A program made the position numbers and the translations under genes. This document shows, in pieces, positions 1-15,360 of a stretch of DNA of 64,000 bases. The stretch's first letter is position 1, and every line of letters begins with the position of its first letter. The DNA comes from an uncultured bacterium. Lineage in GTDB: Bacteria > Desulfobacterota > Desulfobaccia > Desulfobaccales > 0-14-0-80-60-11. The stretch lies in assembly GCA_937943575.1 (NCBI GenBank), contig CALEAV010000014.1:115857-179856 (forward strand). The letters are read 5' to 3'. Under the pieces are notes generated by a model. The model was given only the letters and a program-made list of their open reading frames with translations, did not search any database and was not told the DNA's origin.

Positions 1-278
1 GCCACATTCTTGGTGCCGACGATAAGGCCGGTGCCCACCTCCTCGGTGGCCTTGATCACCCCCTTGAACAGCTCCTTGCTGACATTGACCGTCTCTGAGG
101 CCACCGCCCCTGTGCCGTGCAGGACATCGGTAACCGTCTGGCGGGCCAGATTGACCATCTCGCCCTCGATCTCCTGCAGGCCTTTGAGACTGCCGACGAT
201 CCCGGTTTTTACCGTGGAGCCGGCCTGCCCCAGCATTTCACCCAGACCGCCCTCTTTTTTGGTTTCTTCCGCCGCCAT
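1..278 (-). CDS. Small helical (phasin/LEA-like) protein, 3' end outside window
   Basis: The gene runs off the left edge, so only the first 92 codons are visible. The ATG at 278 is preceded by GGAGGT at a 4-base spacing, which fixes the start. The product begins MAAEETKKEGG and continues as an amphipathic helical stretch rich in Val, Thr, Gly and Glu, with no membrane segment, no cysteine and no catalytic motif. Composition resembles phasins and LEA-type helical proteins, but I do not recognise a family. It lies downstream of and on the same strand as the HMA_2 gene at 448-741, so it probably belongs to the same accessory cluster. Function unknown. Confidence 0.7.
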   Translation of the reverse strand, partial: MAAEETKKEGGLGEMLGQAGSTVKTGIVGSLKGLQEIEGEMVNLARQTVTDVLHGTGAVASETVNVSKELFKGVIKATEEVGTGLIVGTKNV

Positions 279-447
279 GATGACCTCCGACCTGCAGAAT
301 AGACCGGCATCGGTGCCGGCCAGGGTTAACCGCCACGCGGGCCAGGATCAGGGATCCGCCACCGGCCGCGGCGGATGCGTGGACATCACCGCCGCCCCGG
401 CCAGAGCCCCTCCCCCTGCGCCGCCACCCCTCCCCGGGAGGGAGGGG

Positions 448-741
448 CTAAAGATGCTTACTCAGCAGGGCCGCCAGCTCCAGGGGATTGACCTCCGGGA
501 AGAGGGAGGAGACGGCGTCCTTCAGGGCCCACAGGGACCAGAGGGAGGTGAGGGTCTGCCGGTCATACCGGAGATGCACCACTCCCTCCGCCGCCTCGGC
601 CCTGACCTGAAGGATGCCGTTGACGGCGCCAAGACTCGCCTCCAGGCTCCGGGCCAATTCGTCGTTGCCCTGCAACCTGGCCACTGCCAGAGTCAGCTCC
701 CCGGGTCGGGCCTTAAGAACCGTGATGCCCTCAACAGCCAT
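448..741 (-). CDS. HMA_2-domain small protein (cysteine-free)
   Basis: A 97-residue protein with the ferredoxin-like fold pattern of HMA_2 (heavy-metal-associated domain 2): a basic/aliphatic first strand (GELTLAVARLQGN), a helix with ELARSLEASL, a G-I-x-x-V turn, and a third strand ending VVHLRYD. The CxxC metal site of classical HMA domains is absent, and there is no cysteine at all. The C-terminal half (DAVSSLFPEVNPLELAALL) matches the tail of the larger HMA_2 protein at 1490-2053, which has a similar FRELLPEVDPEAL stretch. It is divergent from the HMA_2 gene at 1066. The family assignment is by pattern recognition; the biological role is not known. Confidence 0.7.
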   Translation of the reverse strand: MAVEGITVLKARPGELTLAVARLQGNDELARSLEASLGAVNGILQVRAEAAEGVVHLRYDRQTLTSLWSLWALKDAVSSLFPEVNPLELAALLSKHL

Positions 742-1065
742 GCCCCTCCCCCCTTCCCGGAGCAGAACCGGCCTCCCACGCCAGCTCCCGTCGGGAAACG
801 ATCCCCAGGATGCTCCACGTTAACACTTTTGCGCCGGGAAGAGAATTACTGAGTTTTTGATATATATCTATTTTAGTATTTAAATGTTCCCCGCCTTGGC
901 GTTAAGGTGGACCGATGGTGTCCTGTCAGCGCCGCAACCCGCTTCATTACCTGCATGAAACTAATTATTTTCTAACTTTCTGATGATGCTTTTTTAATGC
1001 CGGGATCGTAATGTCCCCTTCAGGAAACCGGGAAAAACCATCCGGAGCAGAGGCAGGCGGACCTG
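742..1065. other. Divergent intergenic region of the HMA_2 cluster
   Basis: A 324-base spacer between two divergent HMA_2 genes. It is markedly AT-rich between about 840 and 1000, unlike the surrounding GC-rich DNA, and should hold promoters for both directions. It contains the GATATATATC palindrome annotated separately. No open frame of interest is seen. Confidence 0.6.
859..868. promoter_or_regulatory. Candidate operator, palindrome GATATATATC
   Basis: A perfect 10-base palindrome in the AT-rich part of the divergent spacer. A one-mismatch version (GATATATGTC) occurs just upstream of the padR-type gene at 2438-2447. Recurrence in the two divergent spacers of one cluster suggests a shared site for the cluster's PadR regulator; this is inference. 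Confidence 0.4.
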
Positions 1066-1431
1066 ATGAAAGTGATTTCCTCTTATATCCATGCCCTGGA
1101 AGGACGGTTGCGGATCAAGATTCCTGAGGTAAAAAACTCGCCTTCCAAAGCCCGGGAAGTGGAACGGCACCTGTTGCTGACGCCGGGGGTGCATGAAGTG
1201 TCGGCCAATCCGGTGACCGGCAACGTCCTGATCCTGTATAATCCTCGTCTCTGCCGCCAGGAGGAGGTGATCGGGGCGCTCCGGGAGCTGGGGTATCTGG
1301 AGGAGTCCCCGGCGCCTGGCGGCCCGGCCGGCCCACCCCGAGAGGGCGATCTCGTGGGCCGGGTCTTCTCCTCGGTGGCCTCGGCGGTGGTGGAGGTGGC
1401 GCTCTCCCGGCTGGTGGCGGCCCTGATCTGA
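1066..1431 (+). CDS. HMA_2-domain small protein with amphipathic C-terminus
   Basis: A 121-residue protein. Residues 8-75 follow the HMA_2 pattern: EGRLRIKIPEVKN as first strand, a helix through AREVERHLLLTPGVHEVSA, then GNVLILYNP, and a second helix VIGALRELGYL. A Pro/Gly linker follows, then a hydrophobic amphipathic helix (about 92-121: LVGRVFSSVASAVVEVALSR) that could dock on a membrane or partner. One cysteine is present (LCRQEE) but no CxxC, so classical metal transfer is unlikely. It is divergent from the HMA_2 gene at 448-741 and convergent with the one at 1490-2053. Confidence 0.75.
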   Translation: MKVISSYIHALEGRLRIKIPEVKNSPSKAREVERHLLLTPGVHEVSANPVTGNVLILYNPRLCRQEEVIGALRELGYLEESPAPGGPAGPPREGDLVGRVFSSVASAVVEVALSRLVAALI

Positions 1432-1489
1432 CTTTCGGACCGGGCCAGGCCTGGCGTCCGATTCTTTTGCCACCCAGTGATATGGCTTT

Positions 1490-2053
1490 TCATCCCTGCT
1501 TGGCTTCCGGCGGCGCCGCTGGCTCAGGCGAGGGCCGGTTCAACATCACAAAGCTGCTGAAGGCGAACCAGAAGTAATCATACCAGGAGGGGAGCGGAAT
1601 CTTGTCCGCCTTCAGCAGGCTGCGCACCCCCAGGACAAGCAGCCCCAGCGGCAGCAGCAGCCGCAGGTCCACCCCGCCGGTGAGTCGGGCCACCCCGGCA
1701 TTCAGCGCGGCAGCCGCCCCCATCAGCCCCCCGGAGCCGACCGGATTGCCCGCCCCCCCCTGTCCGGCAAGGACTTCCCGGTTCAGGGGCAGGGCCTCGG
1801 GGTCGACCTCCGGCAAAAGTTCCCGGAACCCAGCGGTCAGGGCCGCCAGGGCGCCCTCAGACAGGAGCTCGGCCCCGTCAAAGTAAAGCACCAAACTGCC
1901 GCTGGCGGGTCGGGCCTCCACCCGCCGGATCCCCGGGATCTGGTGCAGCCGTGCTTCCGCCTGCCGGGCCAGGGTGGGATTGCCCCGGAGTCTGGCCACC
2001 TTCAGACGCACCCGCCCCGGCAGGGCGTGGGCCACTTCCACCCCTGAAGCCAT
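1490..2053 (-). CDS. HMA_2 domain fused to C-terminal membrane segments
   Basis: A 187-residue protein. The N-terminal part (about 1-90) is an HMA_2 domain: GRVRLKVARLRGN strand, helix ending IPGIRRVEA, GSLVLYFD strand, FRELLPEVDPEAL helix, and no CxxC. A Gly/Ala-rich middle leads to two hydrophobic stretches (around 128-148, LRLLLPLGLLVLGVRSLL, and 156-172, WYDYFWFAFSSFVML), so the C-terminus is probably membrane-embedded. It starts 18 bases after the DUF5132 gene on the same strand, so the two are likely co-transcribed and may act together at the membrane. Related HMA_2 modules are known at the N-termini of some P-type ATPases; no ATPase is visible here, though the cluster is cut by the window edge. 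Confidence 0.75.
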   Translation of the reverse strand: MASGVEVAHALPGRVRLKVARLRGNPTLARQAEARLHQIPGIRRVEARPASGSLVLYFDGAELLSEGALAALTAGFRELLPEVDPEALPLNREVLAGQGGAGNPVGSGGLMGAAAALNAGVARLTGGVDLRLLLPLGLLVLGVRSLLKADKIPLPSWYDYFWFAFSSFVMLNRPSPEPAAPPEAKQG

Positions 2054-2071
2054 GGGAGCCTCCCTCCCCTT

Positions 2072-2350
2072 TCAGGCCGAGGGCGCCGGGCCGGGGGGGG
2101 TGGCCGCCTCCTGGGCCCGCTCCGCCTTGCATTCCGCCACCAGATCGCTGATCTGCTCCGCCGCTTCGGCGGCATATTCCTTGGCGGCGTCAGCCAGGGC
2201 CAGGTACCCTTTGATCAGGGTCTTGGCCAAGGGCCGGGAGACTGCCGCCACCGCCGGCAGCACAATGGGCGCCGCCAGCGCCACCCCCAGGATCACCAGG
2301 ATACTGGGAACCGTGCCTTTCAACCCGTCATCCAGGAGCGCCATTGCCAT
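2072..2350 (-). CDS. DUF5132 family small membrane protein
   Basis: A 92-residue protein with an N-terminal MALLDDGLKG-type start, one long hydrophobic helix (about residues 13-38) and then a charged Ala-rich helix with AKEYAAEAAEQISDL. This arrangement matches DUF5132, a family of unknown function that I associate with HMA_2 genes. GGAGGATGGCA upstream gives a good ribosome site. It heads the minus-strand pair with the HMA_2-membrane protein and is divergent from the PadR gene. Its expression is probably controlled from the 2351-2458 spacer. The family call is from memory of the pattern; no function is established. Confidence 0.7.
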   Translation of the reverse strand: MAMALLDDGLKGTVPSILVILGVALAAPIVLPAVAAVSRPLAKTLIKGYLALADAAKEYAAEAAEQISDLVAECKAERAQEAATPPGPAPSA

Positions 2351-2437
2351 CCTCCTTTACCCGTGGATTGACTCTGGTCGTTTACGCCTGAGCTACAGTT
2401 AACCAAAAACTAACGCTTCCCTCAATAATTTTAAATC

Positions 2438-2447
2438 GATATATGTC
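2438..2447. promoter_or_regulatory. Candidate PadR operator, GATATATGTC
   Basis: An imperfect 10-base palindrome 11 bases upstream of the padR-type start and within the divergent spacer, matching 859-868 at 9 of 10 positions. A position this close to the start would suit autorepression. The site lies in an AT-rich stretch, so chance occurrence is possible. Confidence 0.4.
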
Positions 2448-2458
2448 TTTATCTGAAT

Positions 2459-2776
2459 ATGGATTCACTCCAGTCCTCCATCTGGAACGGACTGCTGCAG
2501 CTCTACATCCTGCACCAGGCGGAGAGAGGCCCCACCTATGGCGGCAGGCTGAAAAAACAGTTGGCTCTCCACGGCTATAACATCAGTCCGGGCAGCCTTT
2601 ATCCTTTGCTGCACAACCTGGAGCGGTCCGGTCTGTTGCGGGGCTGGATCAAAGTCTACAAGGGCCGGGCCCGGAGGCACTACATCATCACGGAGCAGGG
2701 GCGGCTCCGCCTCCAGGAGCTCCGGGCCGGGCTGAAGGCGGTGGTGGCGGAGCTCCTCCCGCCTCTGGAAAATTAG
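2459..2776 (+). CDS. PadR family transcriptional regulator
   Basis: A 105-residue winged-helix protein. The N-terminal helix and the ISPGSLYPLLHNLERSGLL segment (about 41-61) are the PadR/PF03551 DNA-recognition signature, followed by the wing RRHYIITEQGRLRLQEL. It is of the short PadR subtype, without the long C-terminal coiled-coil domain. PadR proteins are usually repressors released by a ligand. Its position, divergent from DUF5132 with matching palindromes in both cluster spacers, suggests it controls the HMA_2/DUF5132 genes. No clear Shine-Dalgarno precedes the ATG, so translation may be weak or leaderless. Confidence 0.85.
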   Translation: MDSLQSSIWNGLLQLYILHQAERGPTYGGRLKKQLALHGYNISPGSLYPLLHNLERSGLLRGWIKVYKGRARRHYIITEQGRLRLQELRAGLKAVVAELLPPLEN

Positions 2777-4323
2777 CCGGGACAGAAAAACCCCGCCGGT
2801 GGGCTTTTGGGGGCCGGCAGGCCCGCCCCTGGGAGAGGGCCTCGGGAGGGGGGGCCTTCCTCCATCAGTGGTCAGCCTCCCTGAGGGAGCTTTTCAGGCT
2901 TCCCCTCCTTTGCGGGAGGGCCGCAGGAGAACGGGGCCCAAAAGGCTGGCGGGGCCTCCGCAGGCACCCCCGGGACAGACGGCCCGGTGGGAATACGGTC
3001 CGGACGGCCCCCTGGGCGGGCGCCTCCGCTGAGGGGGGCCGATCCTCCGTGGATCACCGTCGTCGCTGCTTGGCGGCCACTCAGGAACCCCCTGCGGGGA
3101 AAACGGCAGCTCCGGCCTCATGTGCCGGCAATGCAGCCTTGGTCACGACCAAAGTCGGTTGACGTGGGAGGTGCGGCTGCCGGCAGCCCCCTGCCTCCCC
3201 TGCCTGCCCTTGGCCGAACCAGGAGCCATCCCGCCCGACACCGACATGCAGGCCAGAGCCGGGGCCGGATGGGGCAATCCGGCCCCCCTGAACCGGCAGG
3301 AGCAAACCGTCCCTTGCCCCGCAACCCCGAAAACACCCCGCCGGTGGCCGGGTTTCTGATGCCGGAGACCCGGTTGCGGCCGTCATTGGCGGATGCAGGA
3401 CTGTCTCATTTCCCCTCACGGGCGCCGGGGAGGAGGGCTTGTGCGCCCGGTCCGGGGCGGTGGGGATGAATCGGGACTGCCCGGCCCTGAAGGCGAACCG
3501 CCAGGAGCGGCAGACCCAGATCGCATCCCTCCATGGCGGCGGTGAGGCGACGGATCTCCCTCCGGGCCCGGGCTTCGGTCCTTCCCTTTCAATCAGGAGG
3601 GTTGAAGCTCTGCCCCTGCATCGTTGGGCCGGCAGCGTCGCCCCCTCTCGCCGGTGCGATGCCGGCGTCCGCAAAGGCCCCGCCCCGGTCTCCACGGCCT
3701 GGGCAGCCACCCCCCGGCAGATTCCCGTCCCGGCCCGGAAGGGGGCCAGGGAGATAAGGAAACAAGGTCCCCAGGTGACTTCCAAAAGAGCCGCCTAAAC
3801 CAAGATCTTTGGCCCGTTAGGGATGGACAAAGGGACGACAGGGCGGAGGCCCGGCAGCCTGATCAATTCCTCATGGCCGTTGGTCCGTGCACCGCGAGTC
3901 TTTCAGGATCTGGGAAATGAGGGGGAATCCCAAGGCCCGGGCGCATGTCCGGAGACGGGGCAACACTGACCCGCTGGAGTCCCGGCCGGGACCATCCCGC
4001 CGGGTGAACGCCGCCTCCCCCGGCAATGCTCCGGCCGCCAATCCAAGGTCAGTTTCTCCGCAACCTCCCTGAACGGCGTCGGCCCGGCGCGGCACGGGGC
4101 GGGGGGGAAATGGCAGGGGGGAACCGGAGAGGACAAGGGGGCCATCCAAGGCGGTGAAGCGCCGAAACGCCGGGCACCCGGGTGGCATCGGCATCCTTGG
4201 GTCTTCCGGAGGGGGGGCAGGCGGGGAGGCGCCGGCAGAGGCCCGCACCCGGCGGCCTGAAAAGCCCTGGCAGGCCAGGGCGCGGCGGCCCTGGGCGGAA
4301 TACCGGGGGGAGTAACTTTAAGC
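2777..4323. other. GC-rich stretch with no recognisable gene
   Basis: About 1.5 kb after the padR gene. Open frames on both strands are long only because stops are rare at this GC content: their translations are Pro/Arg/Gly-rich, overlap each other and carry no domain signature. I see no rRNA, no known structured RNA and no insertion-sequence ends. It may be decayed genic DNA. Confidence 0.5.
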
Positions 4324-4360
4324 CAAAAGAAAGGGGGCGCGGCGGTGAACCTCGCCCCCT
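4324..4360 (-). terminator. Rho-independent terminator of tRNA-fMet
   Basis: On the minus strand AGGGGGCG (4353-4360) pairs perfectly with CGCCCCCT (4332-4339) across a 13-base loop, followed by TTCTTTT. It lies 8 bases past the CCA end of the tRNA, so it ends that transcript. Confidence 0.85.
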
Positions 4361-4368
4361 GAGTTTCC

Positions 4369-4445
4369 TGGTAGCGGGGGGTGGATTTGAACCACCGACC
4401 TTCGGGTTATGAGCCCGACGAGCTTCCAGGCTGCTCCACCCCGCG
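4369..4445 (-). tRNA. Initiator tRNA-fMet (CAT)
   Basis: A 77-base cloverleaf on the minus strand with encoded CCA. The anticodon stem-loop TCGGGCTCATAACCCGA carries the three consecutive G:C pairs that mark initiator tRNAs, and the anticodon is CAT. The first acceptor position is C opposite U72, so the pair is unpaired, as required for formylation; many bacteria have C1 opposite A72. The T-arm is GGTGG/CCACC with a TTCAAAT loop. Promoter and terminator are both visible, so this is a monocistronic transcript. Confidence 0.97.
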
Positions 4446-4485: not shown

Positions 4486-4898
4486 CTGTTCTCGGGAAAA
4501 ATATCACAAAAAATCCCTTACCAGCCTGATCTGGACACCTTCGCCCCTCCTCCTTAACCAGGGTCAGCCCTGATAATTCTTTCTGCAAAAAACCGCCCAT
4601 TCCTTGGTCCCTGGACCAGGCTGCGGACCGCCCTGTCAACGGGGCGCGTGTCTCCCCCGCCACTGCTTCCAGGCTGCCCCCGACTGCCAGGGCTGGTCCG
4701 GCAGGTCTGAAATCTGCCGGGGGAATAAACGGCCTCCCGGCCCCTGGAAAAAGGTCCTTTTTCCGGGGAATACCCCCTGACAACTTTTCTAAAAATTTCT
4801 CTGGGGGTGAACAGGAAGTTCCTTTACCGGGGGACGGCTCAGGCATAATTATTCCCGGGGCCTTTTGAACTTGGCGAGGCTGAAGGGTCGCAGCGCCC
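4486..4898. other. Intergenic, no gene seen
   Basis: About 410 bases between the tRNA promoter and the 3' end of the MFS gene. Base composition is mixed and there is no supported reading frame. Confidence 0.5.
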
Positions 4899-6125
4899 CT
4901 AAAGTATGGGCGCCCCACCCTCCCCCGCCCGCCGCAGATCCTCCTCCACATGACGCCTGGCGGCCAGGAAAAATCCGGCCGCCGCCGCCAGGGCCGCCAG
5001 GGTCAGGGCCACCCCGGCGGTGAGGTGCCAGAGGTCCGCCACCAGTCCGATGAGAAAGGGGGAAGGCACATCCCCCACCAGGTGGATGACGATGATGTTG
5101 AGGGCCACCGCCCGGGCCCGGCGGGCCGGCCCGGCCACGCTCACCACCACCGCGGTGAGGAGGCCGGGATGGAGGAACAACAGAAAGACGGCCCCCACAA
5201 TGCCCGGGATGTAGAGCCCGGGGGTGGCGGCAAATATGGCCACGGCACCCAAGGGCAGGGCGGCAAGGGCTCCCCCGGCGCTGAGCCACAAAGGCCCGTC
5301 GGCCCGGCGGGCCACAAGGCGGCTTCCCAGATATCCCCCGACCACCGTGCCCACCCCCCCGGCCACCGTCACCGCACCAAAGAGGAGGTAGTTGGCCTGG
5401 GCCAGACTCAGACCCTTGTCCACCTCCAGGAAGCGGGGCATCCAGAAGGCCAGGCCCCCCAGGGTGAAGGTGGTCATGCCGTAGCCCAGCATCAGCCTCC
5501 TCAGGCTGGGAATCCGCCAGAGGGCCAGGAAGGAGGCCTGGGGAGCGGTTCCCTCCTCCGGGTTGCGAGGGGGAGGCAGCGCCGCAGTGGGCAGCCGGGT
5601 CACCGCCCACGCCAGAAGCAGACCCGGCACGCCCCCCACCAGAAAGACGGGCCGCCAGCCGAGGCGGCTCCCCAGAAAGCCCCCGGCGAGATAAGCCAGG
5701 GCGGCCCCCACCGGGATGGCCAGATAAAAGATACCCAGGGCAGAGCTGCGACGATGCAAGGGCAGCCGGTCGGCCAGGTAGGCCGGGGCCAGGGTGCCGA
5801 AGGAGGCCTCCCCCACCCCTACCAGGCCCCGGGTGAGCAAAAGCCAGGGGTAGGAGCTCACCCAAGCGGTGAGGCTGGTGGCCACCGACCACAGCGCCGC
5901 GCCGGCGGCCATCAGCCGCAGGCGGCCGTAGCGGTCCCCCAGCCAGCCGAAGAGGGGGGAGGTGGCCAGATAGACCAGGAAAAAGGCGGTGCCCAGAAAC
6001 CCGTAGGCCCGCCCGCTCAAGCTGAGCTCGTCCTTGATGAGGCTGGCCAGGGCGGCCAGAAGATACCGGTCCAGGTAATCCAGGAGGTTGAGGCCGGTGA
6101 GAAGCAGGAGGGCACGGGTTCCCAT
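4899..6125 (-). CDS. MFS transporter, Spinster-like
   Basis: A 408-residue membrane protein with about 12 hydrophobic segments. The MFS signature follows TM2 (GWLGDRYGRLRLMAAG, about residues 60-75), and the N-terminus NLLDYLDRYLLAAL is close to the NxxNYxDR motif of the Spinster/MFS_1 group. TM5 ends in GWRPVFLVGGVPGLLLA, also typical of this subgroup. Substrate cannot be read from sequence; relatives carry lipids, organic acids or aromatic compounds. It stands alone, 126 bases after the small gene at 6252-6620 on the same strand. The start is taken at ATG 6125. Confidence 0.85.
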   Translation of the reverse strand: MGTRALLLLTGLNLLDYLDRYLLAALASLIKDELSLSGRAYGFLGTAFFLVYLATSPLFGWLGDRYGRLRLMAAGAALWSVATSLTAWVSSYPWLLLTRGLVGVGEASFGTLAPAYLADRLPLHRRSSALGIFYLAIPVGAALAYLAGGFLGSRLGWRPVFLVGGVPGLLLAWAVTRLPTAALPPPRNPEEGTAPQASFLALWRIPSLRRLMLGYGMTTFTLGGLAFWMPRFLEVDKGLSLAQANYLLFGAVTVAGGVGTVVGGYLGSRLVARRADGPLWLSAGGALAALPLGAVAIFAATPGLYIPGIVGAVFLLFLHPGLLTAVVVSVAGPARRARAVALNIIVIHLVGDVPSPFLIGLVADLWHLTAGVALTLAALAAAAGFFLAARRHVEEDLRRAGEGGAPIL

Positions 6126-6251
6126 GGGCGTGAGGGGAGGGGCCTAAAGCGGGTGAAAGAGGGCCTCTAAAGCGAGGCCATCAGCCGGCATCCGGGATGG
6201 GCCCGAGCATTTATGGGGGCGCAGGACCTTCCCCCCTTCCCCACAGCCCGG

Positions 6252-6620
6252 TCAGGCGAGCCGGATGAAGACCGTCTCCCGCTCCGCCTCGCCGGTGAGG
6301 AGGGACTCCCGGCCGTCCTCGGAGACAAAGCGCCTCAGGGGAAATTCCTCCCCGGGAAACCAGTCGATGGCAAAGGCATAGCCGCCGTCCCGCCGCCGCA
6401 GCACCAGATGCGCGGGCTCCTCCTCCTCTTCTTTCAGGGGATAGAGGAGATACAGGGTGTAGGCGGCCTCCCCGCCCCCCTCCTCCCCCCGGTCCCGGCG
6501 GCCGGTCCAGAGCTCAAAGCCCTCCCCGAACAGACCGGAGAGCCAATAAAGCTGGATGAAATCGTGGGGGAAATCGAAGGCCGCCTGCGGGGAAGCGGCC
6601 TCCGCCTCGTCCCGGGTCAT
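6252..6620 (-). CDS. Conserved-looking hypothetical downstream of frdB
   Basis: A 122-residue acidic protein whose ATG overlaps the frdB stop in an ATGA junction, so it is translationally coupled to the fumarate reductase operon. The sequence alternates aromatic and acidic residues (DFPHDFIQLYWLSGLFG near the start; an EEEEEP loop; YAFAIDWFPGEEFPL) in a way that suggests a small beta-rich soluble domain. There are no cysteines, signal peptide or membrane segments. I do not recognise a family. An accessory or assembly role for the reductase is suggested only by position. Confidence 0.65.
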   Translation of the reverse strand: MTRDEAEAASPQAAFDFPHDFIQLYWLSGLFGEGFELWTGRRDRGEEGGGEAAYTLYLLYPLKEEEEEPAHLVLRRRDGGYAFAIDWFPGEEFPLRRFVSEDGRESLLTGEAERETVFIRLA

Positions 6621-7348
6621 TTGCCCTTGAGCCCCGCCCAGGCCATCTTGCGGCGCACCAGGGCGAGCTGCTGCTGCAGAGGGATCTCCATGGGGCAGAT
6701 GTCATCACAGGCCATCAGCCCGATGCAGCCGAAAACCCCCTCATCGGTGCCCACCACCTCAAAGACCTGCTGCGGCGAACGCTCGTCCCGGGGGTCAATG
6801 AGGAACCGGGCAATGCGGTTCAATCCCGCGGCGCCCACAAAATCCGCCCGCATGTTGGCGGTGGCGCAGGCGGCAATGCAGGAACCGCACTCAATGCAAC
6901 GCTCCGCCTCGTAAATCTCCTGGGCCAGGGCGTTGTCCATGCGCTCTTCGGGGGACTTGGGGTCAAATTCCTTGTCCGTATGGATCCAGGCCTCCAGATT
7001 CTCATTCAACTGGCGGAACCACACCCCGGTGTCCACCGACAGATCCCCCACCAGCTTGAACACCGGCAAGGGCATCAGGGTGATGCGATCCGGCAAATCC
7101 TGGGTGAGGGTCTTGCAGGCTAACCCCGGCCGCCCATTGATCAACATGCCGCAGGAGCCGCAGACCGCCGCCCGACAGACAAAATCAAACATCAAGGACG
7201 GGTCCTGCTCCTCCCTCAGACGGTTCAAAGCAATGAACAACGTCATGTTGGGAGTCTCATCCAACTGAAACTCCTGCATCCGGGGCGCAATCTCCGGAGT
7301 GGCCGGATTGTAACGGAAAATACTGAAAGTCAACAACCTCTCAGCCAT
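6617..7348 (-). CDS. frdB: Fumarate reductase iron-sulfur subunit
   Basis: A 243-residue FrdB/SdhB. The N-terminal plant-ferredoxin domain holds the [2Fe-2S] ligands C58, C63, C66 and C78 (CRAAVCGSC...LAC). The C-terminal domain carries CIECGSC plus C161 for [4Fe-4S], and C208, C214 and C218 (CIGLMACDDICP) for the [3Fe-4S] and [4Fe-4S] clusters. It passes electrons between the quinone-reactive FrdC and the flavin of FrdA on the cytoplasmic face. The start at 7348 is chosen because the residues upstream are encoded by a repeat and the family N-terminus begins here; AAAGGA lies 8 bases upstream. A composite repeat separates it from frdA, and it overlaps the next gene by 4 bases. Confidence 0.95.
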   Translation of the reverse strand: MAERLLTFSIFRYNPATPEIAPRMQEFQLDETPNMTLFIALNRLREEQDPSLMFDFVCRAAVCGSCGMLINGRPGLACKTLTQDLPDRITLMPLPVFKLVGDLSVDTGVWFRQLNENLEAWIHTDKEFDPKSPEERMDNALAQEIYEAERCIECGSCIAACATANMRADFVGAAGLNRIARFLIDPRDERSPQQVFEVVGTDEGVFGCIGLMACDDICPMEIPLQQQLALVRRKMAWAGLKGK

Positions 7349-7371
7349 GACAATGGTCCTTTGGTGGCAGT

Positions 7372-7502
7372 GTTGGGGGATTGGGCCAGGGAGCGCAACC
7401 CCCTGCCCCCTCCCCCACACCCCCACCCCCAACCCCAAGATGGGAGTTGGGGAGGGGGCCCGGGGGAGGGCGGGGGAACGAGTTTCCCCGGCCCTCCCCC
7501 GG
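7372..7502. repeat. Composite palindromic repeat, copy 1 (inside frd operon)
   Basis: GC-rich palindromic element between frdA and frdB. The first module contains GGGCCAGGGAGCGCAACCCC and CCTGCCCCCTCCCCCA; the second module (about 7465-7502) has GGAGGGCGGGGGAAC pairing with the CCCCGGCCCTCCCCC that follows. The same two modules recur at 23992, 45721 and, first module only, at 31450 and 59773. It may form a strong hairpin in the frd mRNA. Confidence 0.7.
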
Positions 7503-7507
7503 TTACC

Positions 7508-9316
7508 CTACTTGATGGGCATGGTGCCGTAGCCCCGGTCGCCGGGGGGCAGCTCGGTGATCTTCACCGGTTCGTAGTCGATGACGGGCATGGATGCGCC
7601 GGGGGGCCAGGTGGCCAGGGTGCGTTTCAGCCAGTTGACGTCGTCCCGCTGGGGGTAGTCCTCCCGGTAGTGGCTGCCCCGGCTTTCGGTGCGCAAAAGC
7701 GCCCCCTGGGCGATGCACAGCGCCAGCCGGAGCATGCCGGGCAGGCGCAGGGCGGCGAAGAGTTCGGGGTTGGGGCCCAGGCCGCTGGAGCGCAGACGGA
7801 GATCCTGGGAGCGCTGGTAGAGCTCCTGGAGGGTGGCAACGGCCTGCTGCAGGCCCTCACCGGTGCGGAAGATGCCCACGTGTTCCAGGAGGGTCTCTTC
7901 CATCTTTTTGCGCAGGACGTAGACGTCTTCAGAGCCGGAGGCCCGCCGCCTGAGCGCCTCAATGCGGGCGGCCTGGGCGGCCAGGTGGTCCTCCACCAGG
8001 GAGAAGGGGAAGGTGAGGGGCGCTTCCTTGACGAATTCCGCCACTCTCTCGCCCACCACCATGCCGGCCACAATGGTTTCGGCCAGGGAGTTGCCGCCCA
8101 GGCGGTTGAAGCCGTGGAGGTCCCAGCAGGCGGCCTCGCCGGCGGCATAGAGGCGGCTCAGGCCCACCACCTCCCCGTGGATGTTGGTGCGCACCCCGCC
8201 CATGGAGTAATGCTGCGTGGGCCGCACCGGGATGAGCTCGTGGACGCAGTTGATGCCCAGGAAGTTGGCGCAGATGGTGTAGACTTCCCGGAGGTTGGTG
8301 CAGATGTGGGCCTCCCCCAGGTGGCGCAGATCCAGCCACAGGTGGGGGCCGTAGGGGGAGTCCACCCCGAAGCCCTTGCGCATGTGGTGCACCATCCAGC
8401 GGCTCACCACGTCCCGGGAGGCCACCTCTTTCTTGACCGGCTCATAGTCCGGCATGAAGCGGTGCAGGTTCTTGTCCAGGAGATAGCCGCCGTCGCCCCG
8501 GCAGCCCTCGGTGACCAGGATGCCGGCGGGCACAATGCCGGTGGGGTGGAACTGCACCGCCTCCATGTTGCCCAGGGGCACCACCCCGGTGTCCAGTGCG
8601 ATGGCCATGCCGGTGCCCTCGTTGATCACCGCGTTGGTGGAGACCCCGTACATGCGGCCGTAGCCGCCGGTGGCGATGACCGTGGCCTTGGCGAGATAGG
8701 GGCGAAGCTCTCCGGTGCGCAGGCTGACCACCACGGCGCCGTAGCATTCCTTGCCGTCGTGGATGAGAGCGATGGCCTCGGAGCGGTCGTGCACGGTGAT
8801 GCCCAGCTTCACCACCACCGAGTCCATGGCGTACTGGAGGACGTGGCCGGTGCCGTCGGAGGCGAAGCAGGTGCGCCACTTGGCGGTGCCCCCGAACTGG
8901 CGCTGGGCGATGAGGCCGGCCTTTTCGGGGAGCTCCTCCACCTCCACGCCGTCGGGCAGGGTGCGCTTGCCCGGCACCACCCGGGACCAGGGCACGCCCC
9001 ACTGGGCCATCTGGCGCACCGCCACCGGGGCCAGCTCCACAAAGAGGCGGGCCACCTCCTGGTCGCAGCCCCAGTCCGAGCCCTTGACGGTGTCTTCGAA
9101 ATGGATGTCGGGATTGTCACCATAGCCCATGGCCACATTGCCCAGGCTGGCCTGCATGCCGCCTTGGGCCGCGGTGCTGTGGGAACGCCGAGGGGGCACC
9201 AGGCTCAGGATGGTGACCGTGTGGCCGCGACTGGCGGCCTCAATGGCTACCCGTTCGCCGGCCAGACCGGCGCCGATGACCAGAACATCAGTGAGATGGG
9301 CCTCAGACCACTTCAT
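7508..9316 (-). CDS. frdA: Fumarate reductase flavoprotein subunit
   Basis: A 602-residue FAD subunit. It shows the dinucleotide fold VLVIGAGLAGE (about 11-21), the covalent-FAD histidine region RSHSTAAQGGM (about 44-54), the substrate-site HFTPTG-like AVQFHPTGIVPAGILVTEG, the catalytic Arg region in ASRDVVSRWM, and RPTQHYSMGGVRTN followed by GFNRLGGNSLAET. The sequence order and the RQFGGTAKWRTCFASDGTGH stretch resemble the Wolinella-type menaquinol:fumarate reductase. The enzyme reduces fumarate to succinate, or runs in reverse, coupled to the menaquinone pool. The start lies 1 base after frdC's stop, so coupling is tight. Confidence 0.96.
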   Translation of the reverse strand: MKWSEAHLTDVLVIGAGLAGERVAIEAASRGHTVTILSLVPPRRSHSTAAQGGMQASLGNVAMGYGDNPDIHFEDTVKGSDWGCDQEVARLFVELAPVAVRQMAQWGVPWSRVVPGKRTLPDGVEVEELPEKAGLIAQRQFGGTAKWRTCFASDGTGHVLQYAMDSVVVKLGITVHDRSEAIALIHDGKECYGAVVVSLRTGELRPYLAKATVIATGGYGRMYGVSTNAVINEGTGMAIALDTGVVPLGNMEAVQFHPTGIVPAGILVTEGCRGDGGYLLDKNLHRFMPDYEPVKKEVASRDVVSRWMVHHMRKGFGVDSPYGPHLWLDLRHLGEAHICTNLREVYTICANFLGINCVHELIPVRPTQHYSMGGVRTNIHGEVVGLSRLYAAGEAACWDLHGFNRLGGNSLAETIVAGMVVGERVAEFVKEAPLTFPFSLVEDHLAAQAARIEALRRRASGSEDVYVLRKKMEETLLEHVGIFRTGEGLQQAVATLQELYQRSQDLRLRSSGLGPNPELFAALRLPGMLRLALCIAQGALLRTESRGSHYREDYPQRDDVNWLKRTLATWPPGASMPVIDYEPVKITELPPGDRGYGTMPIK

Positions 9317-9317
9317 G

Positions 9318-9995
9318 TCAGACCTTTACCGAAGTGAAATAAAAGACCACCAGGGCCACAAAGCCCAGGGCCACCAATCCCAGGGTGGCATACACCAGAT
9401 ACTTGGTGAACTTCTGGCGATGCACCCAGCTCCACTTCACCAGGATGCGGTACAAGCCCAGCATGGCGTGGATCTCCGCCAGGACCAGCAGGGCCAGGAG
9501 CAGGGAGAAGTGGCCGGACTGGACCCGAAGCGCGCTTTTGGCCGCCTCGATGGGCCAGGTGGAGAGGGTGGACCAGATGTGGATGGCGGAGAGCACCAGC
9601 ACCCCCAGACCGGTGAGGATCTGCGCCAGCCAGGCCCAGGTGTCCAGGTGCTGCAGGCGGCGGGAATGCTGGAGAAAGATGCGCATCTCCTCCACCCGCC
9701 AGGGGGCCTTGCGCATGGCCGCCAGGCCGTGCACGAGGATGGCCAGGATCACCAGGGGGATGCCGATGTAGGAGATGTAATATTCATCCAGGAACTGGGA
9801 ATCCCGGTTGAAGGTCTCCTGCCCCAGGATGATGCTGGAGACCGCAAAAAGATGAAACTGCAGGAAGCCCAAAAGAAAGAGGCCGGTGAAGAGTTCCACC
9901 AGCTCCGTGCCGGCTTCCCAGCGGGGGCTTTTGGCCAAAGTCTTCTGGAGATACACGGGGGCACCTTGCAGACGGGAAATAGAGAAAATTCGCAC
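9318..9995 (-). CDS. frdC: Fumarate reductase cytochrome b subunit
   Basis: A 225-residue integral membrane protein with five hydrophobic helices and histidines at 48, 89, 139 and 176 in helices I, II, IV and V. They are spaced like the four haem ligands (44, 93, 143, 182) of the dihaem Wolinella FrdC, so a dihaem B-type anchor is expected. It oxidises menaquinol and feeds FrdB. The start is the GTG at 9995, which lacks a good Shine-Dalgarno; an internal GTG about 14 codons later is an alternative. The order frdC-frdA-frdB is typical of epsilon- and deltaproteobacterial operons. Confidence 0.92.
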   Translation of the reverse strand: MRIFSISRLQGAPVYLQKTLAKSPRWEAGTELVELFTGLFLLGFLQFHLFAVSSIILGQETFNRDSQFLDEYYISYIGIPLVILAILVHGLAAMRKAPWRVEEMRIFLQHSRRLQHLDTWAWLAQILTGLGVLVLSAIHIWSTLSTWPIEAAKSALRVQSGHFSLLLALLVLAEIHAMLGLYRILVKWSWVHRQKFTKYLVYATLGLVALGFVALVVFYFTSVKV

Positions 9996-10130
9996 AATTT
10001 GAAACCATATCCCGACTCGGAGGGTTCGTCAAGGGGTGAGAGGATTTTTCCCGGCCGCCCCTGCCATTGGTCTCGGCCATGCAGCTCCACTCCCCTTGCA
10101 TTCCGGCGGGGAACGGGGTATGAGAGACCC

Positions 10131-11153
10131 ATGGGAGAGGAGGAAAAACTGCGGGGGACAGCGCCCCCGCCGGCGGCCGCCGGGCGCTGGCTGGCCATCG
10201 CCAGGGAGGTCCTTCAGGCCGAGGCCCAGGCCATCCTCAAGGTGGCGGAGCGCCTGACGGACAGTCTGGCCCGGGCCGTGGCCCTGATTCTCGCCCACCC
10301 CGGCAAGGTGGTGGTGAGCGGCATCGGCAAATCGGGGGCCATCGCCCACAAGATCGCCGCCACCCTGGCCAGCACCGGGACCCCGGCGGTGTTCCTGCAC
10401 GCCGCGGAGGCGGTGCACGGGGACCTGGGCATCTACACCCCCGGCGACCCCAGCCTCCTCATCTCCAAAAGCGGCGCCACCGCCGAGCTTCTGCGCCTCA
10501 TCCCGGTGCTCCGGCGCTTCCGCTCACCCCTCATCGCGTTGGTGGGAAACCTCCACAGCCCCCTGGCCCGGGAGGCCGATGTGGTCCTGGATGCCCGGGT
10601 GGAGCGGGAGGCAGACCCCCTGAACCTGGCCCCCACCTGCAGCACCACCGCCGCCCTGGCCCTGGGGGACGCCCTGGCGGTGGCCCTGATGCACGCCCGC
10701 AACTTCACCAAGGACGACTTCGCCCGCTACCACCCCGCCGGCCAGCTGGGGCGCAATCTGTGGCTCACCGTGGCCGACGTCATGCACCGGGGGGAGGCGG
10801 TGGCCTGGGTGGGGCCGGAGACTCCTTTGCGCCAGGTGATCATCGCCATGACGGAACGCCCCCTGGGGGCCGCCTGCGTGGTGGACGAGGCCGGCAACCT
10901 GCTGGGGCTCATCACCGACGGGGATTTGCGCCGGGCCCTCATCACCCGCCAGGACATCCGGGGGGTCACGGCCCAAGAGATCATGACCGCCCGGCCCACC
11001 ACCATCACTCCCGGGGCCAGCCTCAAGGAGGCGGCCCAGCTCATGGAGGACCGCCCCTCCCAGATCTCGGTGCTGCCGGTGGTGGAGCCCTCAAGCCGCC
11101 GCTGCCTGGGGCTCATCCGCATCCACGACATCTACCAGCCCGAGCTGATCTGA
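10131..11153 (+). CDS. kdsD: Arabinose-5-phosphate isomerase
   Basis: A 340-residue protein with an N-terminal SIS domain and two C-terminal CBS domains, the KdsD/KpsF architecture. It interconverts ribulose 5-phosphate and arabinose 5-phosphate for Kdo and lipopolysaccharide synthesis. Visible motifs are SGIGKSGAIAHK (about 63-74), FLHAAEAVHGDLG (89-101), the SKSG phosphate loop, and CBS segments beginning VADVMHRGE and TAQEIMTARP. The ATG at 10131 is chosen as the first Met in frame before the conserved domain; the Shine-Dalgarno is weak. It is divergent from frdC. It implies a Kdo-containing outer membrane, i.e. a Gram-negative cell. Confidence 0.93.
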   Translation: MGEEEKLRGTAPPPAAAGRWLAIAREVLQAEAQAILKVAERLTDSLARAVALILAHPGKVVVSGIGKSGAIAHKIAATLASTGTPAVFLHAAEAVHGDLGIYTPGDPSLLISKSGATAELLRLIPVLRRFRSPLIALVGNLHSPLAREADVVLDARVEREADPLNLAPTCSTTAALALGDALAVALMHARNFTKDDFARYHPAGQLGRNLWLTVADVMHRGEAVAWVGPETPLRQVIIAMTERPLGAACVVDEAGNLLGLITDGDLRRALITRQDIRGVTAQEIMTARPTTITPGASLKEAAQLMEDRPSQISVLPVVEPSSRRCLGLIRIHDIYQPELI

Positions 11154-11382
11154 GGCGGGAGCCCGCAGTGGAAACGCCTCGCTGTCCCCGGCCGGGCCGG
11201 GGATCGCCGGCCCCGACCCGCCTCAGGCCCTCCCCCTGCAGGGGCGGCGGCAGTGGCAGCCACCCACCGACCCCGGCGATGCGGCCCTCCCTCCATAAGG
11301 AGCGGCGGCCGGGTGCCCGGACTGCCGCCAAGGGGGTGCGGCCTTCCCACCTTCCCCCGGCCCCCCCGCAGCGGGCGGCGTC

Positions 11383-12651
11383 TCAGCCCTCCAGCTCCTG
11401 CCAGTAGCGCCAGAACTCCGGGAAGGACTTGGCCACGCAGCCCGGATCCTCGATGACCACTCCGGGGACCTTCAGGCCTGCCACCGCAAAGCTCATGGCC
11501 AGGCGGTGATCGTCATAGGTGTGGATGATCGCGCCGTGAAGAGGGCGTCCACCCCGGATGAGGAGGCCGTCGGCGGTCTCCTCCACCTCCCCGCCCATCC
11601 TTCTCAGCTCCGTGGCCACCGCCGCCAGACGGTCCGATTCCTTGTGGCGCAGATGGCCGACGCCGGTGATCACCGTGTCGCCCTGGGCAAAGGCCGCCAC
11701 CACCCCCAGGGTGGGGACCTGGTCCGGCATGGCGCTCATGTCCACGGTGATGCCGATGAGGGGCCCGCCCACGACGGTCAGACCCGCCGGCGAGCTCTCC
11801 AGGTGGCAGCCCATGCGGGCCAGCACCGACAGGAAGTCGATGTCGCCCTGGGTGGAATCCACACTGAGGTTGGCCACCGTCACCCGGCCGCCGGTCACCG
11901 CCGCTGCGGCCCAGAAGTAGGCGGCGCTGGAGGCATCCGCCTCCACCGCGTACTCCCGGGGCTGGTAGGCCTGGCCGCCGGGCACCTGGAAAAACCGGTA
12001 CCCCCGGCGAAAATACGAGATGCCGTAGGCGGCCATCACCTCCAGGGTGAGGTCCACATAGGGCCGGGAGACCAGCTCGCCGGTGATCTCCACCTCCACC
12101 CCCAGGGGGGCCAGGGGGCCGATGAGGAGCAGGGCGGAGAGATACTGGCTGCTCACCCGGCCCGAGAGGCGGGTGCGGCCCCCGGTGAGGCCGCCCTGGA
12201 CGATGACCGGCGGACAGCCATCCCCCCGCTGGGATTCGGCCTTGACCCCCAAGAGCCTCAGGGCGGCCAATAGCTCCCCCACCGGCCGCTGGCACAGCCG
12301 GGGGCTGCCGGTGAGAAGGTACTCCCCCTGCCCCAGGGCGACCAGGGCGGTGAAGAAGCGGTGGGAGGTGCCGGAATTGCCGAAATGCAAAGGCTCGGCC
12401 ACCGGCTGGAGGCGGCCGCCGGTGCCCCGGAGGCGGACGGTGGCGTCCTCCCAGTCGATGCCGGCCCCCAGCTTCCGGAGGGCCTGGGCGGTGAGGAGAG
12501 TGTCCTCGGCCACCAGGGCGTTGGTCACCAGGCTTTCCCCCCCGGCCAGGGCGCCGGCGATGAGGGCCCGGTGGGTGAGACTCTTGGAGCCCGGCAGGGA
12601 GACGGTGGCCTCCACCTTATCCCGGGGGTGGATTTCCCGCGTGATGTCCAT
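11383..12651 (-). CDS. aroA: EPSP synthase (3-phosphoshikimate 1-carboxyvinyltransferase)
   Basis: A 422-residue shikimate-pathway enzyme that joins phosphoenolpyruvate to shikimate 3-phosphate. Recognition points are LPGSKSLTHRALIAGALA (about 19-36), the PEP-site segment FGNSGTSHRFFTAL (where many family members have GNSGTTMR or GNAGTAMR), RPVGELLAALR, and the C-terminal HKESDRLAAVATELRRMGGEV with HTYDDHRLAMSFAVAGL. The SHR variant in the PEP loop is notable because residues in this loop affect glyphosate sensitivity in the family. The gene stands alone, 52 bases from miaA on the same strand. Confidence 0.95.
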   Translation of the reverse strand: MDITREIHPRDKVEATVSLPGSKSLTHRALIAGALAGGESLVTNALVAEDTLLTAQALRKLGAGIDWEDATVRLRGTGGRLQPVAEPLHFGNSGTSHRFFTALVALGQGEYLLTGSPRLCQRPVGELLAALRLLGVKAESQRGDGCPPVIVQGGLTGGRTRLSGRVSSQYLSALLLIGPLAPLGVEVEITGELVSRPYVDLTLEVMAAYGISYFRRGYRFFQVPGGQAYQPREYAVEADASSAAYFWAAAAVTGGRVTVANLSVDSTQGDIDFLSVLARMGCHLESSPAGLTVVGGPLIGITVDMSAMPDQVPTLGVVAAFAQGDTVITGVGHLRHKESDRLAAVATELRRMGGEVEETADGLLIRGGRPLHGAIIHTYDDHRLAMSFAVAGLKVPGVVIEDPGCVAKSFPEFWRYWQELEG

Positions 12652-12703
12652 AGATTACCTTTCAGATGCCCGGAAGGACCCGGCCCGGCGCCTCTTTAGG
12701 CCC

Positions 12704-13636
12704 TCAGGGCCTGTGCCTCCCGAAAAATTCCCGCAGCAGCGCCAGCATCTCCGGCAGGTCCCGGGGGTGGAACCAGCGCATCTCCGGGTCGGCCCGAAAC
12801 CAGGTGAGCTGCCGCTTGGCATAGCGGCGGGTGTCCCGCTTGATGGCCGCCACCACCTCCTCGAACTCCATCTCCCCCTGCAGATAGGCCACCAGGTGGC
12901 GGTAGCCCAGGGCCCTCAGGGGTTTGAGGTCCGGGGGATAACGGCTGAGCAGCCCCCGGACCTCCTCCAGCCACCCCGCCGCCAGCATGGCCTCCACCCG
13001 GGCCTCGATGCGGGCGTAAAGCTCCTCCCGGGGCAGGGTGAGGCCGATTTTCACCGTTTCATAGGGGCGGTCGGCAAAGCGGTGGGCCGCGGCCAGCTCG
13101 CTCATGGGCCTGCCGCTCCCCTCCACCACCTCCAGGGCCCTGAGGATGCGGTAGGTGTCCCCGGGGGGCAGGCGGGCGGCGGTGGCCGGGTCCCGTTGCC
13201 GCAGCCGCTCATACAAAGCCGGCAATCCCCTCTCCGCCAGCTCCTGTCTCAGCCGGGCCCGGATCTCCGGGTACTTGCCGCCGTCGGGGAAGAGTCCTCC
13301 CAGCAGGGCCCTGATATACAGGCCGGTGCCGCCCACCACCAGAGGCCTGACCCCCCGCCGGATGAGCCCGTCGATCACCGCCCGGGCCTCGGCGAGGTAG
13401 CGGGCGGCGTCATAGGGCTCGTCGGGCGCCGCCACGTCCAGGAGGTGGTGGGGCACCAGGGCCCGCTCCGCCGCGCTGGGCTTGGCAGTGCCGATGTCCA
13501 GCTCCCGATAGACCTGCAGGGAGTCGGCGTTGACGATCTCGGCCCCCAGCTCCGGCGCCAGGGCCAGGGCCACCCGGGTCTTGCCCACCGCGGTGGGCCC
13601 GGCCAGCACCGCCACCTTGGGTCTTTCCGCCCTCAC
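12704..13636 (-). CDS. miaA: tRNA dimethylallyltransferase
   Basis: A 310-residue enzyme that transfers a dimethylallyl group to A37 of tRNAs reading UNN codons. It has the P-loop GPTAVGKT (13-20), NADSLQVYRELDIGTAKP, HHLLDVAAPDEPYDAARY, GGTGLYIRALL, and TRRYAKRQLTWFR near the C-terminus, all MiaA hallmarks. The start is the GTG at 13636, whose GTGA overlaps the mutL stop, giving coupled mutL-miaA translation. A longer frame reaching 13690 would overlap mutL and is not needed for the domain. Confidence 0.94.
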   Translation of the reverse strand: MRAERPKVAVLAGPTAVGKTRVALALAPELGAEIVNADSLQVYRELDIGTAKPSAAERALVPHHLLDVAAPDEPYDAARYLAEARAVIDGLIRRGVRPLVVGGTGLYIRALLGGLFPDGGKYPEIRARLRQELAERGLPALYERLRQRDPATAARLPPGDTYRILRALEVVEGSGRPMSELAAAHRFADRPYETVKIGLTLPREELYARIEARVEAMLAAGWLEEVRGLLSRYPPDLKPLRALGYRHLVAYLQGEMEFEEVVAAIKRDTRRYAKRQLTWFRADPEMRWFHPRDLPEMLALLREFFGRHRP

Positions 13637-15360
13637 CCCTTGGGCCGCCGGAACAGGTGGTGGAGCTCGGAGAGCGACAGGAGGCGCCACAGGGGCCGGC
13701 CATGGGGGCAGGTGGCGGGGCTGCCCACCTCATCCAGCTGGGAGAGCAGGCTGCCCATCTCCTCCGGGCTTAGGGTCTGGCCGGCCTTGATGGCCCCCCG
13801 GCAGGCCAGGGCCAGGCGGGCCCGCTCCCGAACCGCCGCGGGATCGGTGCCGCTCTTGATGGGGCTGGCGGCCTCCACCGCCTCCAGGACCGCGGCCTCC
13901 AGGTCGGCGCCGGCCAGACAGGCGGGCGCCCCGGTGAGGAGGAAGCTGGCGCCGCCGAAGGGCTCCAGGGTGAGGCCCAGCCCGGCGAGGGCCTCCAGGT
14001 TGTCTGCCAGCCATCCCGCCTGGGCCGGGCTCACCTCCACCACCCGGGGAAAGAGGAGGGCCTGGCGGGCCGGCGATACGTCTCCCAGACGCTCATAGAG
14101 CACCCGCTCGTGGGCAGCGTGCTGATCGATGATGATGAGGCCGGCGGGGGACTGGGCCAAAAGATAGGTGGCGGCCAGCTGTCCCATGAGGGTCAGGTCC
14201 TGAAACCGCCCCCCGGGGAGCGCTGCCGCCTCGGGCCGCACCTCCGGGGCCCGCCCCGGGAAAGGGAGGGGGGCGGCATGGAGGACCACCGGATCCACCG
14301 CCGCTCCGGCCTCCGCCACCCGGGGCACGGCCGCCGGCTGCCAGCTCACCTGGTAGACCGGCCTCTCCCCCCCCAGGGGCCCCAGACCCTGGCGCAGGGC
14401 GGCGAGGAGCAGACCGTAGATGCGGCCGGGCTCCCGGAAGCGCACCTCGGCCTTGGCCGGATGCACATTGACGTCCACCATCTCCGGCGGCAGGCGCAGG
14501 GCAACCACCGCCGCCGGGTGCCGCCCCCGGGGCAGCCGCCCCTGATACACTTCCTTGAGGACTGCCCCCAGCATGCGGTCCTGGACCACCCGGCGGTTGA
14601 CCAGGAGGGTCTGGAAGCGGCTGCTGGCGAGGGAAAAGTCCGGGGCCGACATCAGCCCCCGGACCCCCAGGGGGCCGGCCTCCAGTTCAAAGGGCATAAG
14701 ATTCTGGGCCAGCTCCGGGCCGAAGAGGGCCGCCACCCGCTCCGCCAGGCTGGCGGCCGCCGGGGCGCTCACCAGGACCCGGGCCGGGGTGGCCAGCTCG
14801 AAGTGCACCTCGGGGTAGCCCAAAGCCAGGTGGCGCACCACCTCCAGGGCCTGGGCCTGCTCCGCCTCCTTGCTTTTCAAAAACTTGCGCCGGGCGGGGG
14901 TGTTGTAAAACAGCTCCTCCACCAGCACCTGGGTGCCGGGGGCGGCGGGGGCCGGCCCCAGCTCCAGGACCTCGCCGCCCCGGACCACCAGGCGGGTGCC
15001 GGCCTCGGCGTCGTGCGGCCGGGAGATGAGGGTGAGGCGGGAGACCGCCGCCAGGCTGGCCAGGGCCTCGCCCCGGAACCCCAGGGTGGTGACGGCCAAC
15101 AGGTCCTCCTCCCGACGGATCTTGCTGGTGGCGTGGCGCAGGATGGCCAGGGGGACATCCTCCGGCTCCAGCCCGACGCCGTCGTCGGCCACCAGCACCC
15201 GGCGACGGCCGCCCTCCTCCAGGCGGATTGAGATGTGCCCCGCCCCGGCGTCCAGGGCGTTTTCCACCAGCTCCTTGACCACCGCGGCGGGCCGGGTGAT
15301 GACCTCGCCGGCGGCGATCCGGGCGGCGGTGGCCGGCTCCAGCACTGCGATCTGTCCCAT
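13633..15360 (-). CDS. mutL: DNA mismatch repair protein MutL
   Basis: A 575-residue MutL. The N-terminal GHKL ATPase is intact: IAAGEVITRPAAVVKELVENALDAGA, VADDGVGL, HATSKI, TTLGFRGEALASL. The middle part has LFYNTPARRKFLKS and VDVNVHPAKAEVRF. In the C-terminal dimerisation domain, LIIIDQHAAHERVLYERL and the terminal ACRGAIKAGQTLSPEEM and CPHGRPLW are typical; the metal-binding DQHAxxER endonuclease motif is present, as in organisms without MutH. The ATG at 15360 follows GAGGG; a frame extending upstream to 15438 lacks family similarity. Linked to miaA by a 4-base overlap. Confidence 0.95.
   Translation of the reverse strand: MGQIAVLEPATAARIAAGEVITRPAAVVKELVENALDAGAGHISIRLEEGGRRRVLVADDGVGLEPEDVPLAILRHATSKIRREEDLLAVTTLGFRGEALASLAAVSRLTLISRPHDAEAGTRLVVRGGEVLELGPAPAAPGTQVLVEELFYNTPARRKFLKSKEAEQAQALEVVRHLALGYPEVHFELATPARVLVSAPAAASLAERVAALFGPELAQNLMPFELEAGPLGVRGLMSAPDFSLASSRFQTLLVNRRVVQDRMLGAVLKEVYQGRLPRGRHPAAVVALRLPPEMVDVNVHPAKAEVRFREPGRIYGLLLAALRQGLGPLGGERPVYQVSWQPAAVPRVAEAGAAVDPVVLHAAPLPFPGRAPEVRPEAAALPGGRFQDLTLMGQLAATYLLAQSPAGLIIIDQHAAHERVLYERLGDVSPARQALLFPRVVEVSPAQAGWLADNLEALAGLGLTLEPFGGASFLLTGAPACLAGADLEAAVLEAVEAASPIKSGTDPAAVRERARLALACRGAIKAGQTLSPEEMGSLLSQLDEVGSPATCPHGRPLWRLLSLSELHHLFRRPKG

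Follow-up and report, generated by a model that had tools for sequence, protein, structure and literature searches.

Organization of a conserved P2-type ATPase operon with DUF5132, cysteine-free HMA_2 and amphipathic repeat proteins

Two described bacterial systems, in which small membrane proteins accompany a P-type ATPase, are among the closest to the locus analyzed here. FezB, the ATPase of ferrosomes, is of the P1B-6 type. It has been described as a putative ferrous iron transporter (PMC10979944). PacL, a DUF1490 protein of Mycobacterium tuberculosis, stabilizes and clusters a P1B ATPase (PMC9374683, PMC13043812). Our locus lies at the left edge of a stretch of 64,000 nucleotides (hereafter the window), which starts at position 115,857 of contig CALEAV010000014.1 and comes from an uncultured bacterium of the Desulfobaccales. 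The first 2.8 kb of the window contain genes for three HMA_2-type proteins, a DUF5132 protein, a PadR-type regulator and the start of an amphipathic repeat protein (HEL). This region is not a free-standing cluster. It makes up the accessory half of an operon that encodes a P2-type ATPase, continues left of the window and includes a MetK paralog.

By analogy, the cluster is best read as working like PacL effluxosomes and ferrosomes while being a member of neither. The DUF5132 protein consists of a hydrophobic segment followed by a Glu/Ala-rich helix; PacL likewise is small, has a single membrane segment and such a helix, and is encoded beside a P-type ATPase. The cluster pump is however P2-type, in contrast to the P1B pump of PacL, and the PacL accounts consulted describe no counterpart of HMA_2, HEL or MetK. 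DUF5132 was also considered as a PacL/DUF1490 homologue, which is unsupported at this sensitivity (hhalign against six DUF1490 proteins, probability 8%; a PacL-like query was used only to retrieve real DUF1490 records). No His-rich metal-binding tail was found in the DUF5132 protein of the window or its close relatives. The combination of a P-type ATPase with small membrane proteins is shared with ferrosomes (fez), whereas HEL and MetK are additional in the cluster. Ferrosome membership is ruled out, as the cluster ATPase is P2-type. A DUF4405-type FezC was not found by the searches made.

Gene content and conservation of the operon

The genes of the locus are the following (positions refer to the window; those with the prefix L006 belong to genes left of it).

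1..278 (open reading frame (ORF) 3-278), minus strand: N-terminal part of HEL, with 11-residue amphipathic repeats; the remainder lies left of the window
448..741, minus strand: small HMA_2-like protein of 97 amino acids (aa); PF19991 20.8 bits, below the Pfam cut-off of 30 bits
1066..1431, plus strand, opposite to the preceding genes: HMA_2 protein of 121 aa; PF19991 47.3 bits
1490..2053, minus strand: protein of 187 aa with an HMA_2 domain followed by hydrophobic helices (HMA_2/TM); PF19991 64 bits
2072..2350, minus strand: DUF5132 protein of 92 aa, a core gene; PF17195 32.3 bits
2459..2776, plus strand: PadR-type regulator of 105 aa; PF03551 58.4 bits
L006:6370-9411, same strand as HEL and after it: P2-type ATPase of 1013 aa with an N-terminal HMA_2 domain
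L006:5846-6295, same strand as HEL, after the ATPase gene: ArsC/LMW-PTP-like protein of 149 aa
L006:4633-5838, same strand as HEL, after the ArsC/LMW-PTP-like gene: MetK paralog of 401 aa

An earlier annotation of the window from its letters alone (the sequence-only reading) had placed three HMA_2 proteins, DUF5132, PadR and a helical partner together, and every gene it named is real. Two corrections apply: a fourth HMA_2 domain is present, on the ATPase, and PadR falls outside the conserved core. Its surmise of a transporter or enzyme beyond the left edge was borne out, since reading to the left gave both the P2-type ATPase and the MetK-like enzyme, and extended HEL to its full length of 231 aa. 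The gene at 448-741 is the first of the HEL-ATPase unit, and its product is matched by cluster-built HMA_2 profiles at 1e-22 or better. The HMA_2/TM gene is the core gene between DUF5132 and HEL, while satellite HMA_2 genes of the 1066-1431 type are present in most loci.

Conservation was assessed in two DUF5132-based surveys, one of 99 genomes of relatives and one of a sample of 148 Nitrospirota genomes. DUF5132 occurs in 14 of the relatives, and in all 14 the short segment around it also holds HMA_2 genes and a frame for an ATPase with an HMA_2 domain. Sixteen of the 148 Nitrospirota encode DUF5132, with HMA_2 adjoining in 16/16, and any HMA_2 was found in only two of 20 Nitrospirota genomes without DUF5132. 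The neighbourhood of HMA_2 and DUF5132 in related genomes, which the sequence-only reading had proposed as a check, is therefore seen in 30 of the 30 DUF5132-bearing genomes when both surveys are pooled. Chance assembly is rejected on this co-occurrence and on the conserved gene order described below.

A scan of genome contigs with a HEL alignment yielded 80 loci; their proportions describe HEL-bearing loci, the unbiased test being the two DUF5132 surveys. The core order DUF5132–HMA_2/TM–HEL–ATPase–MetK recurs among these loci in several phyla, with hosts among the Desulfobacterota, Nitrospirota (including Ca. Manganitrophus), Nitrosospira, Nitrosovibrio, Ca. Brocadia, Thiobacillaceae and others. 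Where the flanks permit a judgment, DUF5132 lies upstream in 58/60 loci and the ATPase is present in 56/62, of which 54 also have MetK. The MetK gene is found directly downstream of the ATPase gene on the same strand in 58 of 58 cases, with a median gap of -3 bp. Between-locus distances correlate across the genes (Mantel r 0.70 to 0.88), the tightest pair being ATPase and MetK (r 0.88); this fits co-inheritance, to which shared species phylogeny also contributes. A plasmid search with DUF5132 gave no match, and one with the ATPase gave mostly ordinary cation ATPases along with one Microvirga plasmid that encodes an HMA_2-form ATPase with DUF5132 and HMA_2 genes nearby.

Our literature searches returned no paper on DUF5132, nothing relevant for DUF3562 or HMA2-domain, and none for MetK with a P-type ATPase in Nitrosospira. 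The gene system is apparently undescribed so far, though subscription papers were mostly outside the search.

The pump and its partner proteins

Judged by its domains and cation-site residues, the ATPase is a P2-type (PMR1/LMCA1-like) cation pump. It has Cation_ATPase N and C domains and the DKTGT motif, its best NCBIfam model is the PMR1-type Ca-ATPase (601 bits, below the equivalog cut-off of 798), and its best solved relatives are LMCA1, SPCA1 and SERCA. The residues PEGLP in M4, N..E in M5 and N..(S/T)D in M6, which make up the Ca2+ sites in SERCA, are kept; in M8, a Gln stands at the position of SERCA Glu908 in an alignment read by eye. The pump thus resembles PMR1/LMCA1-type Ca2+/Mn2+ ATPases in sequence, domain set and cation-site residues, but differs from them by an extra N-terminal HMA_2 domain, a dedicated accessory operon and a score under the PMR1 equivalog cut-off. 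From these features, Ca2+ or Mn2+ appears the likeliest transported ion.

The CxxC motif is missing from all three HMA_2 proteins of the window, as the sequence-only reading had noticed, and from all 298 HMA_2 ORFs overall, 209 of which contain GRxR; in the HMA_2/TM form, R14 and R16 are invariant. The structure model of the protein at 1490-2053 has an HMA (ferredoxin-like) fold with hydrophobic helices after it. The best-covered matches of this model are MerP (TM-score 0.71) and CopZ (0.73), both by target length, with Foldseek E-values of only about 0.02-0.13. A role of HMA_2 as a membrane or partner-binding module is plausible. CoBaHMA domains combine an HMA fold lacking CxxC with conserved basic residues, and they have been proposed to bind anionic lipids. 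In calcyanin of calcifying cyanobacteria, a CoBaHMA domain is joined to Gly-rich helical repeats. The cluster proteins may be akin to these in their cysteine-free HMA fold with basic residues; unlike in calcyanin, the HMA_2 domain and the Gly/Ala repeat protein are encoded by separate genes beside a pump.

HEL is composed of gapless 11-residue amphipathic repeats. A helix of the 11/3 type has its signature at about 98.2 degrees, and 57/57 HEL homologs have their maximum hydrophobic moment at 98.0-98.4 degrees. The periodicity lies at least 7.2 standard deviations above shuffles, and the weakest HEL scores 4.06, against 3.06 for the best of 1404 background ORFs not overlapping HEL. The protein is weakly hydrophobic and rich in Val, Ala, Gly and Thr, with Lys on one flank and Asp/Glu on the other, a composition similar to that of synuclein and perilipin 4. 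An 11-mer amphipathic repeat that coats lipid surfaces is known from perilipin 4 (PMC5889406). HEL has in common with synuclein and perilipin the long gapless 11-residue repeat, the weak hydrophobicity and the charged flanks, but it is encoded in a bacterial operon and sequence homology is not shown: a search of solved structures with HEL gave synuclein only at E 2.7, and no homology is claimed.

The MetK paralog has all three MetK domains and passes the metK equivalog cut-off, so that automatic annotation would label it a methionine adenosyltransferase. Residue roles follow those of E. coli MetK; the E. coli sequence that served as yardstick in the alignment is 62-66% identical to the real MetK copies found. 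Save for a conserved Lys-to-Arg change, the ATP/triphosphate residues are kept in 59/59 cluster copies. In the same 59 copies the second methionine-contacting Asp is replaced by His, and the GAGDQG loop is replaced as well, whereas both are intact in canonical MetK from four of these genomes. The paralog is like canonical MetK in its three domains and ATP/triphosphate residues and different in its methionine-binding residues, and it probably does not bind methionine in the usual manner. At least two MetK genes are present in 19 of 22 cluster-bearing genomes examined, and a single one in seven of eight genomes without the cluster. The genome of the window itself, with an assembly 96% complete, yielded only the cluster-linked MetK and no canonical metK, a gene that may be absent from the incomplete assembly.

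Regulator and genomic surroundings

The closest NCBIfam model for the PadR protein is the Rv3488-type (85.9 bits, below its cut-off of 140). Two probable operators lie in the cluster.

859..868, no strand: probable PadR operator GATATATATC, a perfect palindrome, in the gap that separates the divergent pair 448-741 and 1066-1431
2438..2447, no strand: second probable PadR operator GATATATGTC, within a sigma-70-like promoter (2457 to 2428, minus strand) before the DUF5132 gene

Within the 64 kb, only two sites match GATATATRTC (0.02 expected), and both fall in divergent promoter regions of the cluster. Among PadR-bearing relatives, loci L054, L055 and L056 share both site positions, and L052 and L059 do not. 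In four of the six loci with intact PadR, each of the two divergent promoter regions bears the probable operator; loci without PadR are mostly without operator sites. Because the sites stand at both promoter regions and track PadR-bearing relatives, PadR is probably a local regulator of both transcription units, with predicted binding at these sites. Intact PadR was found in 6 of 14 relative loci and 3 of the 80 wider loci, the latter count ruling it out as a core member. Variability of PadR had been named beforehand as a mark of chance assembly, a rule that fails here: PadR is variable, yet the remaining genes are strictly conserved.

To the right, about 1.6 kb of G+C-rich DNA (2777-4371) separates the PadR gene from a tRNA gene (4372-4445); no gene was recognisable there by eye, its ORFs not having been searched against libraries. 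A decayed second copy of the cluster lies on contig C1 of the same genome (L007, G000:C1:18000-33000, about 5000-8800), with a broken PadR and remnants of DUF5132, HMA_2/TM and ATPase alongside three intact genes, one for DUF5132 and two for HMA_2. Its closest relative is the L052 cluster, from a genome of the same genus.

In many Nitrospirota loci (flanks of L074-L137), pst/phoU phosphate genes adjoin the cluster, in all in 12-17 of the 80 loci. Other recurrent neighbours among the 80 are CorA (8), DUF3562 (23) and a zinc-ribbon protein (25). In two relatives, an extra ATPase, of P1B type and with an HMA_2 domain, is encoded next to or inside the cluster (L059:6371-8500, L063:12887-15190). 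A ferrosome-like locus of the same phylum (L067, G042:C1:616000-632000, about 4486-13929) contains feoAB, two P1B ATPases and HMA_2, together with a MamC-like protein (NF038051, E 1.1e-12) and a DUF5132-like protein of 91 aa (hhalign probability 87% to DUF5132).

Possible function and its alternatives

On balance, we lean towards a P2A-type divalent-cation pump that is organized in the membrane by dedicated accessory proteins. The ATPase would move a divalent cation, most likely Ca2+ or Mn2+, out of the cytoplasm, with the DUF5132 and HMA_2/TM proteins assembling or stabilizing it in the membrane. The HMA_2 domains, cysteine-free and with arginines, both on the pump and separate, would serve for docking or for binding anionic lipids rather than as metal chaperones, and around the pump HEL may lie on the membrane surface, in the manner of synuclein and perilipin on theirs. 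The MetK paralog would bind ATP or triphosphate, and methionine not in the usual way, while PadR would control both transcription units through its two like operators in the bacterial family of the window. Several points weigh against this picture: the protein-protein contacts and the organization of the pump are predicted from the genes, DUF5132 shows no detectable homology to the known scaffold PacL, and the sequence gives no certain identity of the ion. In addition, AlphaFold gives HEL as stacked helices with a 22-residue period, because of which a soluble solenoid is also possible.

The main rival is a storage compartment: the cation would be pumped into a membrane-bounded vesicle that HEL coats and the HMA_2 and DUF5132 proteins shape, in the way that Fez proteins shape ferrosomes. 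The periodicity and the weak hydrophobicity of HEL, as in coat proteins of lipid surfaces (perilipin 4, PMC5889406), speak for it, as do the HMA_2, DUF5132-like and MamC-like proteins beside feoAB and P1B ATPases in the ferrosome-like locus. The literature consulted reports no organelle for this gene system, however, the ATPase class is unlike that of ferrosomes, and the data match a patch of the cell membrane equally well; we regard such a compartment as a serious but rather unlikely explanation.

Ordinary Ca2+/Mn2+ export, by a plain exporter whose neighbours are loosely linked and have no joint role, seems improbable. P2-type pumps do work without partners in many bacteria and the ion-site residues look ordinary, but the gene order kept across phyla, the match between the HMA_2 domain of the pump and those of its neighbours, and the correlated evolution of the genes all count against it. 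An operon centred on MetK, with the pump and accessories serving a small-molecule pathway on an S-adenosylmethionine (SAM)-like or triphosphate product, would suit the tight and invariably adjacent ATPase/MetK pair and the methionine pocket changed in all cluster copies and kept in the four canonical ones, but it is very doubtful given that no other biosynthetic gene is widely conserved nearby.

Returning to the membrane-organized pump, genes annotated as 'unknown', 'heavy metal domain', 'calcium ATPase' and 'methionine adenosyltransferase' form one conserved operon, which includes a bacterial 11/3 amphipathic repeat protein linked to an ion pump. A caution follows for annotation, as a set of proteins scored as MetK probably does not bind methionine in the usual way. 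More speculatively, the operon could specify a new membrane compartment or pump platform, with a P2-type pump, a coat of HEL and cysteine-free HMA proteins, and a repurposed SAM synthetase in the machine. Its hosts include ammonia oxidisers, anammox bacteria, Nitrospirota and relatives of sulfate reducers, and since named strains (Nitrosospira, Nitrosovibrio, Desulforhabdus) are among them, the function can be tested.

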